Source: Pseudomonas hamedanensis
Lineage (GTDB): Bacteria; Pseudomonadota; Gammaproteobacteria; Pseudomonadales; Pseudomonadaceae
Assembly (NCBI RefSeq): GCF_014268595.2
Contig: NZ_CP077091.1
Coordinates: forward strand, 1,882,501-1,946,500
DNA length: 64,000 bases
Direction of reading: 5' to 3'
The position numbers and the translations under genes are program-made. Shown here piece by piece: positions 9,814 to 52,897 of this stretch (the first letter of the stretch is position 1; each line of letters begins with the position of its first letter). The notes under the pieces were generated by a model. It was given only the letters and a program-made list of their open reading frames with translations. It was not told where the DNA came from and searched no databases.

Positions 9814-10257
9814 TTATTGCAGAACCGCCTGCTGCGCTCCATTGATCGGGATGCGCTTGGCTTTCGCTTCTTCCGGAACCACTCGCAACAGGTCGATGCT
9901 CAGCAGACCGTTGCGCAGGTCGGCGGCCTTGATCTCGATGTGATCGGCCAGACGGAAAGACAGCTTGAAGGCTCGCTGCGCGATGCCCTGATGCAGGAAC
10001 GTGACGTTCTCGTCAGTGTCACGCTTGCCACCACTGATGGTCAGCACACCTTTCTCGACTTGCAGGTCCAGGTCATCTTCCTGGAAGCCGGCGGCCGCGA
10101 CGACGATACGGTATTGGTCATCACCGTGTTTCTCGACGTTGTAAGGAGGATAGCTGCTGCCTGGCTCGTTGCGCAGGGCGGTTTCGAACAGGTCGTTGAA
10201 ACGGTCGAAACCTACCGAGGAACGGAACAGTGGCGCGAGAGAAAATGCAGTACTCAT
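9814..10257 (-). CDS. ibpA: Small heat-shock protein, Hsp20/IbpA family
   Basis: A 147-residue alpha-crystallin-type holdase that binds unfolding proteins during heat stress. The start MSTAFSLAPLFRSSVGFDRF and the central alpha-crystallin domain (YNVEKHGDDQYRIVVAAAGF to HIEIKAADLRNGLLSIDL) match the IbpA family, and length is normal. Expression is likely heat-controlled twice: a sigma-32-like promoter at 10330-10358, and a ROSE-type leader whose UUGCU segment can pair with the AGGAG ribosome site. Confidence 0.95.
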   Translation of the reverse strand: MSTAFSLAPLFRSSVGFDRFNDLFETALRNEPGSSYPPYNVEKHGDDQYRIVVAAAGFQEDDLDLQVEKGVLTISGGKRDTDENVTFLHQGIAQRAFKLSFRLADHIEIKAADLRNGLLSIDLLRVVPEEAKAKRIPINGAQQAVLQ

Positions 10258-10326
10258 GATTCAAATCTCCTGAAAACAATCAGCAAGGTTTTGTGTCTCC
10301 GCGACCCGAATTCGGCATCGCGTAAC
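10258..10326 (-). promoter_or_regulatory. ROSE-type RNA thermometer in the hsp20 leader
   Basis: Reading the minus strand toward the ATG, a first hairpin (GCGATGCCGAA / TTCGGGTCGC) is followed by CCTTGCTGATTGTTTTCAGG and then AGATTTG just before the ATG. The TTGCT can pair with the ribosome site AGGAG by U-G, U-A, G-G, C-G and U-A, the hallmark of ROSE elements. Such elements are known upstream of ibpA in Pseudomonas and melt on heating. Confidence 0.75.
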
Positions 10327-34255: not shown

Positions 34256-34411
34256 GGGGGCGGACTCACGGTTGAATGGCGTGAGTCAGTCTGGGTCATT
34301 CAAGGAGGCGAATCTTCAGGAAACGTCTCAAAATTCGTGAGAAATTTCCTAAACATCGAATGCTGCAACAATGGCTCCAGGGCCAGGATCAGCCGACGTG
34401 GTTTGCGCGCA

Positions 34412-36487
34412 CTGGGCCTGCGAAGGCGTTTCGTCAGTCAACGCATCTGCGGCTGACACTGCGCTTTCGCGAGCAAGCCCGCTCCCACATCGTTTTTTAG
34501 TGTTGCCGTTATCGCGAACACACCGCCGAAACCTGTGGGAGCGGGCTTGCTCGCGAAGGGGTCAGGCCAGTCAACGCACCTGCAACTGACACTGAGCTTT
34601 CGCGAGCAAGCCCGCTCCCGCATCGTTTTTTAGTGCTGCCACTATCGCGAACACACCGCCGAAAACTGTGGGAGCGGGCCTGCCCGCGAAGGCGTCAGGC
34701 CGGTCAACGCATCTGCGACTGACACTGCGCTTTCGCGAGCAAGCCCGCTCCCACATCGTTTTTTAGTGTTGCCACTATCGCGAACACACCGCCGAAACCT
34801 GTGGGAGCGGGCTTGCCCGCGAAGGCGTTTCGTCAGTCAACGCACCTGCAATTGACACTGCGCTTTCGCGAGCAAGCCCGCTCCCGCATCGTTTTTTAGT
34901 GCTGCCACTATCGCGAACACACCGCCGAAACCTGTGGGAGCGGGCTTGCCCGCGAAGGCGTTTCGTCAGTAAACGCACCTGCAACTGACACTGAGCTTTC
35001 GCGAGCAAGCCCGCTCCCGCATCGTTTTTTAGTGCTGCCACTATCGCGAACACACCGCCGAAACCTGTGGGAGCGGGCCTGCCCGCGAAGGCGTTTCGTC
35101 AGTAAACGCACCTGCAACTGACACTGCGCTTTCGCGAGCAAGCTCACTCCCACATCGTTTTTTAGTGTTGCCACTATCGCGAACACACCGCCGAAACCTG
35201 TGGGAGCGGGCTTGCCCGCGAAGGGGTCAGGCCAGTCAACGCACCTGCAACTGACACTGCGCTTTCGCGAGCAAGCTCAGTCCCACACTGGCTTTCCAGT
35301 GTTGCCGCTATCGCGAACACACCGCCGAAACCTGTGGGAGCGGGCTTGCCCGCGAAGGCGTTTCGTCAGTAAACGCACCTGCAACTGACACTGCGCTTTC
35401 GCGAGCAAGCTCACTCCCACATCGTTTTTTAGTGTTGCCGCTATCGCGAACACACCGCCGAAACCTGTGGGAGCGGGCCTGCCCGCGAAGGCGTTTCGTC
35501 AGTCAACGCATCTGCGACTGACACTGCGCTTTCGCGAGCAAGCCCGCTCCCACATCGTTTTTTAGTGTTGCCACTATCGCGAACACACCGCCGAAACCTG
35601 TGGGAGCGGGCTTGCCCGCGAAGGCGTTTCGTCAGTCAACGCACCTGCAATTGACACTGCGCTTTCGCGAGCAAGCCCGCTCCCATATCGTTTTTTAGTG
35701 TTGCCACTATCGCGAACACACCGCCGAAACCTGTGGGAGCGGGCCTGCCCGCGAAGGCGTTTCGTCAGTCAACGCATCTGCGACTGACACTGCGCTTTCG
35801 CGAGCAAGCTCGCTCCCACACTGGCTTTCCAGTGTTGCCGTTATCGCGAACACACCGCCGAAACCTGTGGGAGCGGGCTTGCCCGCGAAGGCGTTTCGTC
35901 AGTAAACGCACCTGCAACTGACACTGCGCTTTCGCGAGCAAGCTCACTCCCACACTGGCTTTCCAGTGTTGCCGCTATCGCGAACACACCGCCGAAACCT
36001 GTGGGAGCGGGCCTGCCCGCGAAGGCGTTTCGTCAGTCAACGCATCTGCGGCTGACACAGCGCTTTCGCGAGCAGGCTCGCTCCCACACTGGCTTTCCAG
36101 TGTTGCCACTATCGCGAACACACCGCCGAAACCTGTGGGAGCGGGCTTGCCCGCGAAGACGTCAGGCCGGTCAACGCATCTGCGACTGACACTGCGCTTT
36201 CGCGAGCAAGCTCACTCCCACATCGTTTTTTGGTGTTGCCACTATCGCGAACACACCGCCGAAACCTGTGGGAGCGGGCCTGCTCGCGAAGGGGTCAGGC
36301 CAGTCAACGCACCTGCAACTGACACTGAGCTTTCGCGAGCAAGCCCGCTCCCGCATCGTTTTTTAGTGCTGCCACTATCGCGAACACACCGCCGAAACCT
36401 GTGGGAGCGGGCTTGCCCGCGAAGACGTCAGGCCGGTCAACGCATCTACGGCTGACACTGCGCTTTCACGAGCAGGCTCGCTCCCAC
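34412..36487. repeat. Giant tandem REP-doublet (BIME) array, 133/134-base units
   Basis: Fifteen copies of CTGTGGGAGCGGGC begin at 34533, 34666, 34799, 34932, 35065, 35198, 35332, 35465, 35598, 35731, 35865, 35999, 36133, 36266 and 36399; a decayed partial unit precedes them. Each unit holds a forward REP (GTGGGAGCGGGC[T/C]TGC[T/C]CGCG), a spacer (GTCAGTCAACGCA...CTGACACTG), an inverted REP (TTTCGCGAGCAAGCCCGCTC) and a second spacer ending TATCGCGAACACACCGCCG. Units are 133 bases with CATCGTTTTTTAGTG in the second spacer and 134 with CACTGGCTTTCCAGTG. The short reading frames across it are repeat translations, not genes. It lies between the mgtA 3' end and the rocR-type promoter. Confidence 0.95.
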
Positions 36488-36514
36488 CAGGGAGTAAACA
36501 GTGAGGCCGTGGTG

Positions 36515-39214
36515 TTATTGCCAGCCAAACCGGCGAATGTAGAACCCTTTCACCGCCTGGGTCAGCGCCATGTACGCCAGCAGAATCACCGGCAGGAACA
36601 CGAAGTACAGCGACGGCAGCGCCTGCAGTTTGAAGTAGTGCGCCAGCGGTCCCATCGGCAGAAAGATACCGACCGCCATGATGATCCCGGTCATCACCAG
36701 CAACGGCATTGCGGCACGGCTCTGCAGGAACGGAATCTTAGGCGTGCGGATCATGTGCACGATCAGCGTCTGGGTCAGCAACCCGACCACGAACCAGCCA
36801 GACTGAAACAGGGTCTGCTGCTCCGGCGTGTTGGCGGCGAACACGTACCACATCAAGGCAAAGGTGGTGATGTCGAAAATCGAACTGATCGGGCCGAAGA
36901 ACAGCATGAAGCGTCCGACGTCGCCCGGCTGCCAGCGCTGTGGTTTTTTCAGCATGTCCTCGTCGACGTTATCGAACGGAATGGCGATCTGCGAAATGTC
37001 ATAGAGCAGGTTCTGCACCAGCAGGTGCATCGGCAACATCGGCAGAAACGGAATGAACGCACTGGCGACCAGCACCGAGAACACGTTGCCGAAGTTGGAA
37101 CTGGCGGTCATTTTGATGTACTTGAGCATGTTGGCGAAGGTACGCCGCCCTTCGAGCACGCCCTCCTCCAGCACCATCAAGCTCTTTTCCAAGAGGATGA
37201 TGTCGGCCGCTTCCTTGGCAATGTCTACCGCGCTGTCCACGGAAATACCGATGTCGGCGGTGCGCAATGCCGGCGCATCGTTGATGCCGTCACCCATGAA
37301 CCCGACCACATGGCCATTGCCCTTTAGCAGACGCACGATGCGCTCTTTGTGCGATGGCGTCAGGCGGGCGAAAACGTTGGTGGTTTCCACGGCCACGGCC
37401 AGTTCGGCATCGCTCATGCGCTCGACGTCATTGCCCAGCAGCAATCCCTGTTGCGCGAGGCCCACTTCGCGGCAGATCTTGGCGGTGACCAACTCGTTGT
37501 CGCCGGTCAGCACCTTCACCGCCACGCCATGTTCGGCCAAGGCCTTGAGCGCCGGCGCGGTGCTTTCCTTGGGTGGGTCGAGGAACGCCACGTAGCCGAT
37601 CAGCGTCAGTTGCTGCTCATCGGCCAGGCTGTAAGTGTCGCGCCCTTGGGGCATCGAGCGCGCGGCCACTGCAACGACGCGCAAGCCTTCGGCATTGAAG
37701 GTTGCGGTGACCTGACGAATCCGCGTCAGCAATTCTTCACTGAGGGCTTCATCGGCCTCGCCGTGACGCACTCGGCTGCACACCGCCAGCACTTCTTCCA
37801 CCGCGCCTTTGCAGATCAATTGATGCGGCTGGCCGCGCCCTTCAACCACCACCGACATGCGCCGCCGATTGAAGTCGAACGGGATCTCGTCGACTTTGCG
37901 AAACGCCGTGCCGACTTTCAATTCGCGGTGGACTTCCACGTGTTCCAGCACGGCGACATCCAGCAGGTTTTTCAGGCCGGTCTGGTAGTAGCTGTTCAAG
38001 TAGGCCATTTCCAGCACGTCGTCGCAGTCCCCACCCCAGACGTCGACGTGGCGCGCCAGAAAAATCTTGTCCTGAGTCAGCGTGCCGGTCTTGTCGGTGC
38101 ACAGCACGTCCATCGCGCCGAAGTTCTGGATCGCGTCGAGGCGCTTGACGATGACTTTCTTGCGCGACAGGAATACCGCACCCTTGGCCAGGGTTGAGGT
38201 GACGATCATCGGCAGCATTTCCGGGGTCAGGCCGACGGCAATCGACAGGGCGAACAGCAGCGCTTCGGTCCAGTCGCCCTTGGTGAACCCGTTGATGAAC
38301 AGCACCAGCGGCGCCATCACGAACATGAACCGGATCAATAGCCAACTGACTTTGTTCACGCCCATCTGGAAGGACGTCACCGCTCGGTCGGTCGCTCCGA
38401 CGCGCTGCGCCAGCGCACCGAAATAGGTGCGGTTGCCGGTGGTCAGGACCACCGCCACCGCGGTGCCGGAGACCACGTTGGTGCCCATGAACACAATGTT
38501 GTCCAGCTCCAGTGGATTGCGCGTGTCGCGTTGCGCCTGATGGGCGAATTTCTCCACCGGCATCGATTCCCCCGTCATCGCGGCCTGACTGACAAACAGA
38601 TCCTTGGCACTGAGCACCCGGCAATCGGCGGGAATCATGTCGCCGGCCGAGAGTGCAATGAGATCGCCCGGCACCAGTTGCTTGATCGGCAATTCGCGGC
38701 GCGGCGCATCACGGCGCAGCACCGTAGCGGTATTGCTGACCATGGCATTGAGCGCATCGGCGGCCTGGTTGGATTTGCTTTCCTGCCAGAAGCGCAGCAG
38801 CGTCGACAGCACCACCATGGAAAAAATCACCACGGCGGCCTTGAGGTCTTCAGTCAGCCACGAGATCACCGCGAGCAAAGTCAGCAGCAGGTTGAACGGG
38901 TTTTTGTAGCAGTGCCACAGGTGCACCCACCACGGCAGCGGCTGCTCGTGTTCGACTTCATTGAGTCCGTATTGCACACGCAGCGCGGCAGCCTCGACAT
39001 CATTGAGGCCATCGCCGTGCGTACCCAGTGCGGACAACACGGCGGCGCTGTCGCCTTGGGCGGCATCGACCAGGGTATTGGCCAGGGTTGGCGGCACTTC
39101 ACGGCTGACCGTGCTGTCGTTGATCGATTCCAGCAGCGCCAGGCGACGGAAGTGCCGGGCGATGTGGCGAGTACGCAGGAAACCTGCGAAAAACTCCTTG
39201 AGCGTCAGTTTCAT
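36515..39214 (-). CDS. mgtA: Magnesium-translocating P-type ATPase
   Basis: Inner-membrane Mg2+ importer of the P3B ATPase family, 899 residues from the ATG at 39214 (MKLTLKEFFAGFLRTRHIAR). Visible are the actuator TGESMPVEKF, the phosphorylation site CTDKTGTLTQDKIF (Asp ~residue 376), nucleotide-domain KGAVEEVLAVC, the hinge VGFMGDGINDAPAL, and about ten membrane spans. Length equals MgtA/MgtB. The frame is open 27 codons upstream, but the usual family start is MKxxL. A 190-base leader with two tiny ORFs and a hairpin lies upstream, suggesting Mg2+-linked control. The giant REP array follows the stop. Confidence 0.96.
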   Translation of the reverse strand: MKLTLKEFFAGFLRTRHIARHFRRLALLESINDSTVSREVPPTLANTLVDAAQGDSAAVLSALGTHGDGLNDVEAAALRVQYGLNEVEHEQPLPWWVHLWHCYKNPFNLLLTLLAVISWLTEDLKAAVVIFSMVVLSTLLRFWQESKSNQAADALNAMVSNTATVLRRDAPRRELPIKQLVPGDLIALSAGDMIPADCRVLSAKDLFVSQAAMTGESMPVEKFAHQAQRDTRNPLELDNIVFMGTNVVSGTAVAVVLTTGNRTYFGALAQRVGATDRAVTSFQMGVNKVSWLLIRFMFVMAPLVLFINGFTKGDWTEALLFALSIAVGLTPEMLPMIVTSTLAKGAVFLSRKKVIVKRLDAIQNFGAMDVLCTDKTGTLTQDKIFLARHVDVWGGDCDDVLEMAYLNSYYQTGLKNLLDVAVLEHVEVHRELKVGTAFRKVDEIPFDFNRRRMSVVVEGRGQPHQLICKGAVEEVLAVCSRVRHGEADEALSEELLTRIRQVTATFNAEGLRVVAVAARSMPQGRDTYSLADEQQLTLIGYVAFLDPPKESTAPALKALAEHGVAVKVLTGDNELVTAKICREVGLAQQGLLLGNDVERMSDAELAVAVETTNVFARLTPSHKERIVRLLKGNGHVVGFMGDGINDAPALRTADIGISVDSAVDIAKEAADIILLEKSLMVLEEGVLEGRRTFANMLKYIKMTASSNFGNVFSVLVASAFIPFLPMLPMHLLVQNLLYDISQIAIPFDNVDEDMLKKPQRWQPGDVGRFMLFFGPISSIFDITTFALMWYVFAANTPEQQTLFQSGWFVVGLLTQTLIVHMIRTPKIPFLQSRAAMPLLVMTGIIMAVGIFLPMGPLAHYFKLQALPSLYFVFLPVILLAYMALTQAVKGFYIRRFGWQ

Positions 39215-39401
39215 GGCTGTGGCCCCTATGGTCAGCCGGGAAACCGTCAAGCAGGTACGGCCGCGCCGCTGCCACCCGGAAAGCCGGCACGGCAAGGCGT
39301 GGCGCGCCGGTCAAAGAGACCGGCGTGTCGATAGCGTGCGATCACGACAGCAAGTCGCAATCACGCATCGTTCAGCGTCGATGAGAAGGACGTCGAGACA
39401 T
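39215..39401 (-). promoter_or_regulatory. Candidate regulatory leader of mgtA with two tiny ORFs
   Basis: On the mgtA strand, an ATG at 39401 opens MSRRPSHRR and stops at 39372. A second at 39368 opens MRDCDLLS and stops at 39342. A perfect 8-base stem with 5-base loop (CGCCGGTC-TCTTT-GACCGGCG) follows at 39305-39325. Mg2+ transporter leaders in enterobacteria use short leader peptides, so this design is plausible, but the function is inference. The upstream 39402-39676 holds no gene I can support. Confidence 0.4.
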
Positions 39402-52203: not shown

Positions 52204-52897
52204 GGTGGGAACGAGCTTGCTCGCGAAAGCGCACTGTCAGCTACAGATGCGTCGCCTGACCTGACGCCTTCGCGAGCAAGCCCGCTCCCACAGGTTTTTG
52301 TGCCGAACCCGGTCAGAACCATCACCATAAGCCTGTGTGGGAGCGAGCTTGCTCGCGAAAGCGGTGGGTCAGGTGGCGAAAATGTTGGCTGTGCTGGCCT
52401 CTTCGCGGGCAAGCCCGCTCCCACAGGTTCTTGTGCCGAACCCGGTCAGGGACACCATCACAAGCCAGTGTGGGAGCGGGCTTGCTCGCGAAAGCGGTGG
52501 GTCAGGCGGCAGAGATGTTGACTGTGCTGGCCTCTTCGCGGGCAAGCCCGCTCCCACAGGTTTTCGTGCCGGACCCCGGTCAGGAGCATCACCACAAGCC
52601 AGTGTGGGAGCGAGCCTGCTCGCGAAAGCGGTGGGTCAGGCGGTGGAGATGTTGACTGTGCTGGCCTCTTCGCGGGCAAGCCGCTCCCACAGGTTCTTGT
52701 GCCGAACCCCGGCCAGGGACATCACCACAAGCCTGTGTGGGAGCGAGCTTGCTCGCGAAAGCGGTGGGTCAAGCGGTGGAGATGTTGACTGTGCTGGCCT
52801 CTTCGCGGTCATTCTCGCTCCCACAGGTTGTTGTGCCGAACCCGGTCAGGAACATCACCGAAAACCACTGTGGGAACAAGCTTGCCGACTCCCACAG
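52204..52897. repeat. Second tandem REP-doublet array, ~133-base units
   Basis: The forward REP GTGGGAGCG[A/G]GC recurs at 52205, 52337, 52470, 52604, 52737 and 52870 (spacings 132, 133, 134, 133, 133). Each is followed by a spacer (AAGCGGTGGGTCAGGCGG...TGCTGGCC), an inverted REP (TTCGCGGGCAAGCCCGCTCC) and a second spacer (TTGTGCCGAACCCGGTCAGG). The last unit is decayed. It fills most of the gap between pvdO and the pvdE promoter. Spacers differ from those of the array at 34412-36487. Confidence 0.93.

Follow-up and report, generated by a model that had tools for sequence, protein, structure and literature searches.

The window, the whole 64,000-nucleotide stretch of DNA analysed here, contains a tandem array of REPINs immediately downstream of an mgtA-type gene. 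It is nearly certain that this array is a tandem REPIN cluster of BIME-like structure. As to its origin, we consider it probable that a REP-bounded module was placed after mgtA, amplified, and homogenised by recombination, and that the array acts passively. A dedicated host function is unnecessary to explain it.

Organization of the array

A scan for REP cores, allowing up to 5 mismatches, identified 31 cores whose orientation alternates strictly along the whole array (Table 1): 16 minus and 15 plus REPs, without exception. Tandem Repeats Finder (TRF) reported the repeat at 34416-36487, with a period of 133, 15.5 copies, and 91% matches. The two methods agree, and they substantiate the preliminary description of 15 near-identical REP doublets and a partial one repeating every 133 or 134 bases. 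Specifically, the array consists of 15 intact REPINs (a REP, 41 bp, and an inverted REP) and one with a damaged arm, separated by 15 linkers. The spacing after a plus REP is 41 bp in 15 of 15 cases. The linkers, which run from a minus REP to a plus REP, are 46 bp in 11 of 15 cases and 47 bp in 4 of 15, and the period is 133 or 134 bp. Mean identity among the 15 units is 91.0% over whole units, with units 3 and 9 identical. The spacers are repeated as well, as had been claimed, not the REPs alone.

The assignment of REPIN and linker was based on the scanned part of the genome, in which the commonest doublet of opposed orientation is a plus REP separated from a minus REP by 41 or 42 bp (129/237). 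That doublet was therefore taken to be the REPIN, and the 46-bp stretch to be the linker. The elements of the array have the properties of REPINs: two inverted REPs at a defined inner distance (41 bp in 15/15 REPINs), able to form a hairpin. REPINs are also scattered in numerous copies, mostly outside genes, with just 20 of 236 opposed doublets with context overlapping a called gene. As in the ordered tandem clusters of strain SBW25, near-identical REPINs are repeated together with their flanking sequence and, as in BIME-2 of E. coli, alternating REPs and inter-REP segments recur in tandem.

The two ends of the array differ. At the end nearer the EAL gene, a damaged plus REP was recognised by eye; the core scan, which allowed up to 5 mismatches, did not pick it up. 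The inner spacer that follows it, from 34425 on, resembles the other inner spacers of the array (z = 18.2). At the mgtA end, the sequence beyond the last REPIN is unlike an array linker (z = 0.7).

A three-unit (400-bp) repeat was rejected as the underlying period. It scored 3296 in TRF, versus 3268 for 133 bp, but permuting the unit order lent it no support (p = 0.14-0.77 at lags 2 to 7). For neighbouring units p was 0.051, and these may resemble each other weakly.

Table 1. Positions of the array, its parts, and related features (window coordinates unless another sequence is named)
Feature	Position	Strand	Basis
Whole array: damaged REP, then A(BA)15 of REP cores	34410..36487	.	core scan
Damaged plus REP on the EAL-gene side; what is left of the first REPIN's left arm	34410..34424	+	by eye
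Remainder of that REPIN: inner spacer (41 bp), then minus REP at 34466-34488	34425..34488	.	
Type B linker 1 of 15 (46 bp, minus-to-plus); linkers 2-15 recur every 133 or 134 bp	34489..34534	.	
Intact REPIN 1 of 15 (87 bp in all: plus REP, 41-bp spacer, minus REP)	34535..34621	.	
Plus REP starts, intact REPINs 1-8	34535, 34668, 34801, 34934, 35067, 35200, 35334, 35467		
Plus REP starts, intact REPINs 9-15	35600, 35733, 35867, 36001, 36135, 36268, 36401		
Last intact REPIN, mgtA side	36401..36487	.	core scan
Gene taken to encode an mgtA-type Mg2+ P-type ATPase	36515..39295	-	ORF
Gene taken to encode a response regulator with an EAL-type domain, 400 aa	33053..34255	-	ORF
Second array in the window, same geometry, 9 REPs	52205..52824	.	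TRF + core scan
RAYT-type gene with its stop codon in a REP, and the 148-bp units behind it	L108 1885-2522 (C1 of this genome, about 1608902-1609539)		

Comparison with described REP clusters

PF9, PF10, and PF13 are REP classes of fluorescent pseudomonads belonging to orthogroup IV, according to the text available of Nunvar 2013 (PMC3686654). The exact PF9 sequence, GTGGGAGCGGGCTTGCTCGCGAA, occurs in 3 of the 16 minus REPs and 1 of the 15 plus REPs of the array, the rest being close variants. Thirteen of the 15 plus REPs are GTGGGAGCGGGCYTGCCCGCGAA. If Y is T, a single base separates this sequence from PF9, and likewise from PF13 (ending in GAT).

In the accessible portion of Bertels and Rainey 2011 (PMC3116915), the largest ordered cluster of SBW25 comprises 4 REPINs plus a REP and spans over 700 bp. 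The mgtA array, with its 15 intact REPINs and a damaged one, spans 2.08 kb and is made of another REP class. That portion of PMC3116915 describes no fixed linker length for the SBW25 clusters, and we found no such description in the consulted parts of the cited REP and BIME literature. The array also resembles the BIME-2 and modular BIMEs of enterobacteria and Stenotrophomonas as presented in the available text of Nunvar 2010 (PMC2817692): REPs alternate, inter-REP segments are of two kinds, modules are arranged head to tail, and RAYT genes are associated. According to the same text, the inter-REP segments of Stenotrophomonas vary substantially in length and have no mutual homology. In contrast, both kinds of segment are nearly fixed in length here, across arrays and species.

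REP clusters in the genome

The genome is one contig of 6,045,338 bases. A strict REP pattern matched it 353 + 323 times and, read backwards, 0 + 0 times, which excludes chance. A more permissive scan (up to 4 mismatches) covered 2.064 Mb, a third of the genome, and yielded 781 cores. It comprised five 400-kb stretches, two of them picked since arrays had already been seen in them, and the window. The cores fall into 307 clusters: 27 single REPs, 242 doublets, 16 clusters of three or four, and 22 of at least five, the largest having 31 (the mgtA array), 18, 12, 11, and 11 REPs. REP doublets had been said to occur normally singly or in short runs. With 22 clusters of at least five REPs, among them the 9-REP array of the window, long runs are a standing class in this genome. 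The mgtA array is the longest in the scanned third, in keeping with the exceptional size claimed for it, although an array of equal size exists in another genome (see below). A search with seven published REP classes at up to 5 mismatches gave nine other REP places in the window, eight of them with a pair or more, which agrees with the eight that had been reported.

The second array in the window has inner spacers of 41 or 42 bp and linkers of 45 or 46 bp, with one gap of 110 bp. Among the BLAST matches listed (150 of 229 places), none was a second array built of the main-array unit. Arrays of other types were also observed. At C1:474460, nine REPs run in the same direction with a 72-bp period and a spacing of 49, and the array at C1:199996 includes six consecutive minus REPs 110-111 bp apart.

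Arrays in other Pseudomonas genomes

REPIN-linker-REP junctions with a linker of 35-58 bp are present at least once in 36 of 149 genomes, one per species and this one included. The junction pattern is strict, so these counts are lower bounds. Draft genomes are able to hide long arrays. The array of equal size, in genome G034, has 32 REPs and spans 2123 bp (C1:4416991-4419113; L256 2992-5114). It lies on a 5.94-Mb contig between two convergent open frames, at a locus other than mgtA. Further arrays have 21, 18, and 16 REPs. Thus, the mgtA array is extreme, not unique.

The mgtA locus and its relatives

Based on their sequences, we take the flanking open frames to be an mgtA-type gene and a gene for an EAL-domain response regulator. 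They run in the same direction, with the array downstream of mgtA, starting 27 bp after its stop codon, and upstream of the EAL gene. The closest named mgtA proteins (93-94%) are from P. anatoliensis, Pseudomonas sp. RIT288, P. parakoreensis, and P. iridis, which belong to the P. koreensis subgroup within the P. fluorescens group. In the mgtA loci of 22 relatives, an array follows the stop codon in 0/22, a single REPIN in 4/22, and a lone REP in 1/22. Six single-contig genomes (G005, G017, G019, G020, G029, and G034) are behind these loci, and drafts could have collapsed arrays. The spacers of the array unit are absent from the other 56 genomes searched at E 1e-25. Judging from these sequence comparisons, the proposal of a hypervariable locus is plausible, and we expect array copy number to vary between strains.

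The distance from mgtA to the EAL gene is 2259 bp in the window versus about 150 bp in Pseudomonas sp. ok272 (L059), in which there is no array but a REP-like remnant was seen by eye. At other loci this interval contains genes: mgtC and a regulator of about 130 aa in L045, L084, and L102, and a regulator of about 130 aa alone in L044. By eye, mgtC starts within 270 bases past the mgtA stop in 13/22 relatives and does not do so in the other 9. Nor does it lie between mgtA and the EAL gene of the window (34256-36514). The sole MgtC-domain gene found in this genome is elsewhere, and its product shares 43% identity with the L102 one over 133 aa. Since the presence of mgtC beside mgtA varies within the genus, its absence from the window is not evidently a loss, and we dropped the idea that the array replaced it.

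Mosaic structure of the units

Allele blocks are shuffled between the units of the array, and linkage reaches background within about 50 bp. At 27 informative biallelic sites, all four allele combinations were present in 189 of 351 site pairs. Within the linker r2 was 0.51, and within the inner spacer 0.23. The minus REP gave 0.21 with the linker, and the plus REP 0.12 with the inner spacer. When either the minus REP or the linker was paired with the inner spacer of its own unit, the value was 0.03-0.05, as compared with 0.071 in permuted data. Among the many comparisons across consecutive units, single site pairs had r2 values as high as 0.68-1.00, so some blocks extend over the boundary between units.

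Eleven arrays were run for linkage. Four had too few units, and seven had at least five usable ones; in all seven, r2 beyond 45 bp lay close to or at background. In the six besides the main array (L256 to L260 and L137), r2 beyond 45 bp was 0.09-0.20, the small-sample expectation being 0.07-0.17, and the likeness of neighbouring units was unclear (p = 0.09-0.98).

The simplest reading of these sequence mosaics is that units exchanged short stretches again and again. Recurrent mutation is a less probable cause because some alleles form blocks: the linker start, for example, occurs in two forms that differ at seven columns within about ten. Growth and shuffling of the array by recombination are thus likely. 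On the placement reading that we favour, the placed piece was amplified in register, as the direct repeats show, and its units were then shuffled and homogenised by many short exchanges, recombination being the presumed cause of the observed mosaic alleles.

The mosaics also bear on the possibility that assembly falsely multiplied a single REPIN or a small number of them, a reading to which we give almost no credence. Alleles differ between units and are shuffled among them, so the units do not stem from the copying of one read. Moreover, the genome is a single contig, and an array of similar size was assembled within the 5.94-Mb contig of G034. Loci of this type may collapse in short-read assemblies, a warning for users of such genomes.

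Linker length

In the scanned 2.06 Mb, the spacer between plus-to-minus neighbours is 41 or 42 bp in 229 of 253 cases. Minus-to-plus neighbours are 43-49 bp apart in 96 of 187 cases, and a second peak lies at 18-21 bp (57 cases). These 57 pairs represent a second kind of doublet, in which 18-21 bp separate a minus REP from the plus REP after it, and which is apparently another REPIN type that rarely joins arrays.

The linker class was further evaluated in nine junction-rich genomes: this one and eight with at least 12 forward matches. Forward counts were 348 at 35-58 bp, 5 at 59-88 bp, and 17 at 5-34 bp in this set, which was chosen for 35-58 junctions and thus favours that class. In this genome alone, the corresponding counts were 22, 0, and 0, with one reverse match at 5-34 bp. 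These data suggest that the tandem REPIN class keeps a nearly fixed spacing across relatives, as judged from sequence. Exceptions were an array in G132 with 79-bp linkers, one in G034 with linkers of 38-41 bp, and an array of this genome with 39/40. A strictly constant period imposed by helical phase was rejected, since linker lengths within one array differ by as much as 5 bp.

Another reading is a docking array for gyrase, with each 130-136 bp unit wrapping one enzyme and the whole serving as a sink for positive supercoils. The available text of PMC6379681 gives a gyrase motif in E. coli of about -63 to +66, with BIME-2 enriched for cleavage, and the period of the array fits this span of about 130 bp. 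However, an E. coli cluster loses about 565 bp per five REPINs in the accessible text of PMC8049555, or by division ~113 bp each, so that BIMEs in that species need not share the period; the arrays in G034 and G132 with linkers of 38-41 and 79 bp, respectively, also count against this reading. We consider this explanation very unlikely.

Linker length is also pertinent to local duplication, in which one REPIN after mgtA was duplicated with its flank by slippage or unequal crossing-over and the amplification was free of transposase. The portions available of the literature contain precedents: tandem REPIN clusters whose units include flanking sequence (Bertels and Rainey, PMC3116915), and a laboratory line of E. 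coli that lost five of six tandem REPINs (PMC8049555). Nevertheless, random flanks would yield any linker length, yet 43-49 bp dominates in this genome and 35-58 bp in the nine junction-rich ones. The mgtA-side outer flank, being unlike the linker, also argues against it. By comparison, 7 of 30 linker-type outer flanks, taken from arrays of at least five REPs, resemble their own linkers at z above 9, with two more at z 4.7 and 5.0. These flanks fit local duplication, or decayed array ends at those places, and count against block seeding. Overall, we regard local duplication as an unlikely origin of the mgtA array.

Kinship of linkers and apparent spread of blocks

Linkers of 27 arrays of this genome, including four short pieces fetched from outside the 2.064-Mb scan, had a mean similarity score of 3.5 versus -7.8 when shuffled (sd 3.5). 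Pairs scoring at least 20 numbered 8/351, as compared with 0/351 in shuffles. With 14 trimmed, the linker middles were only weakly alike (-2.1 versus -3.7, sd 2.4), and common descent was accordingly rejected as the sole cause of linker constancy. The flanks of 129 single REPINs have conserved bases over about 15 bp, so the ends of linkers are partly the REPIN's own extended ends. Such shared ends do not fully explain the linker length.

Two groups of arrays share linkers: 637357/700572/1361247/1368605/5256766 and 561518/1744114. Indeed, several arrays that are far apart in this genome have spacers and linkers in common over hundreds of bases, at 73-85% identity with the REPs included, and multi-REPIN blocks therefore seem to spread between loci. 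The linker and inner spacer of the main array have no close sister among the 27 arrays, with best scores of 10 and 21, respectively, a point against the placement reading.

The dissimilarity between the linker and the mgtA-side flank, together with the spacers and linkers common to distant arrays, favours a seeding block in which a linker was already present. On the placement reading, such a REP-bounded piece, consisting of at least REPIN-linker-REPIN, would have been placed 27 bp downstream of mgtA.

RAYT candidates

A RAYT-type transposase probably made this placement and perhaps the first amplification, and the genome has candidate genes. The preliminary description had suggested searching for a RAYT matching the REP class of the array. 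Four Y1_Tnp matches were found. One, a RAYT-type gene at C1:1608518, is an open frame of about 160 aa flanked by REPs of the GTGGGAG type, with its stop codon inside a minus one. Behind it are 148-bp units, of which the first three are 99-100% identical and the fourth is 95% identical over 123 bases. Their linker, counted by eye, is 46 bp. From this identity, the units beside the gene are perhaps a recent amplification. A RAYT-type gene is thus present, but its REPs resemble those of the main array without matching them exactly, so the connection to the mgtA array is a presumed one. Seeding of the array as a block by a RAYT is possible in light of these sequences. The accessible text of Nunvar 2010 (PMC2817692) describes RAYT-adjacent BIMEs, some including the 3' end of the RAYT gene, and puts forward a rolling-circle model.

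A more far-reaching reading, which we consider somewhat unlikely, is that the amplified and dispersed unit in Pseudomonas is, rather than just the REPIN, a module of about 130-137 bp, REP-41-REP-46, with the linker part of the element. A RAYT-linked process, e.g., rolling-circle copying of a module-sized circle, would set the linker length, make the RAYT-adjacent arrays, and send multi-REPIN trains to gene 3' ends, after which recombination would shuffle them. This reading requires that linker length be set by an enzyme, not by selection.

The portions of the literature available still debate whether a transposase or recombination drives the growth of REP and BIME clusters. Linker length, end structure, and unit order are features able to separate these growth models. 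The near-fixed linker, the RAYT-type gene with its near-identical units, and the long mosaic array provide testable material for doing so.

Genomic position, folding, and function

Of the 22 scanned arrays with at least five REPs, 17 have a gene 3' end no more than 50 bp away, a count without control distances. The position of the array is thus nothing special to mgtA. Among the 726 gaps with a length of 120 bp or more, 174 separate convergent genes and 211 divergent ones. Ten of 20 arrays lie in convergent gaps (p = 0.014) and 2 of 20 in divergent gaps (p = 0.08). Genes were called using a simple ORF and GC3 method, and two of the 22 arrays, which overlap a gene, were omitted from the orientation count. 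The second largest scanned array (18 REPs, C1:766450) lies between divergent genes, unlike most. Minus-plus doublets are convergent-biased as well (46/91), and the bias therefore belongs to REPs generally.

The REPIN hairpins of the array average -59.3 kcal/mol, and those around the linker -58.2 kcal/mol, so that each REP is able to pair either way. A two-unit fold reached -157.9 kcal/mol versus -100.6 in shuffles (sd 5.1). This strong fold and the 31 alternating cores corroborate the hairpin-forming doublets, with about 30 opposed REP arms, that had been described. Linkers alone had a mean z of -0.8 (27 linkers) and inner spacers alone -1.2, and we make no claim of a stable linker fold. Within the array region, there were 0 terminator-like sites, versus 3.8 in shuffles, which speaks against the favoured reading, and 0 promoter-like sites. 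AT periodicity was computed at a few harmonics, without a control. Variable columns amounted to 2/23 in the plus REP, 6/23 in the minus REP, and 26/88 in the spacers (plus REP versus spacers, p = 0.057).

REPs affect mRNA stability and transcription in E. coli. The array could be a host-selected device at the gene boundary, kept for the stability of mgtA mRNA or to insulate the EAL gene from read-through. Its closeness to the mgtA stop codon, the number of arrays near gene 3' ends, the excess in convergent gaps with the deficit in divergent ones, and the strong fold of the units are all in line with such a device. However, none of the 22 relatives has the array at mgtA, the convergent bias is common to minus-plus doublets, and the REPs are not clearly more conserved than the spacers. 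A position bias is equally expected if selection removes insertions elsewhere. We therefore consider a selected device decidedly unlikely. Under the placement reading, the mgtA transcript, if it runs on, would end in a row of very stable hairpins, which would hinder 3' exonucleases and limit read-through toward the gene that follows. The array thus probably has a passive 3'-end effect, that of a hairpin-rich mgtA 3' end, and its location 27 bp past the stop fits this role.

Other features of the window

A plasmid search returned one record, covering 8% of the query. Rfam gave 6 matches within the window and 0 inside the array. A ROSE-type RNA thermometer (Rfam RF02523, 65.7 bits) was identified at 10252-10324 on the minus strand. 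Finally, a TTTAGGAAA...TTTCC-like motif lies upstream of the EAL gene at 34317-34353 and was seen by eye in L034, L036, L045, and L102 as well. Judging from its sequence and placement, it is perhaps a promoter or a regulator site.
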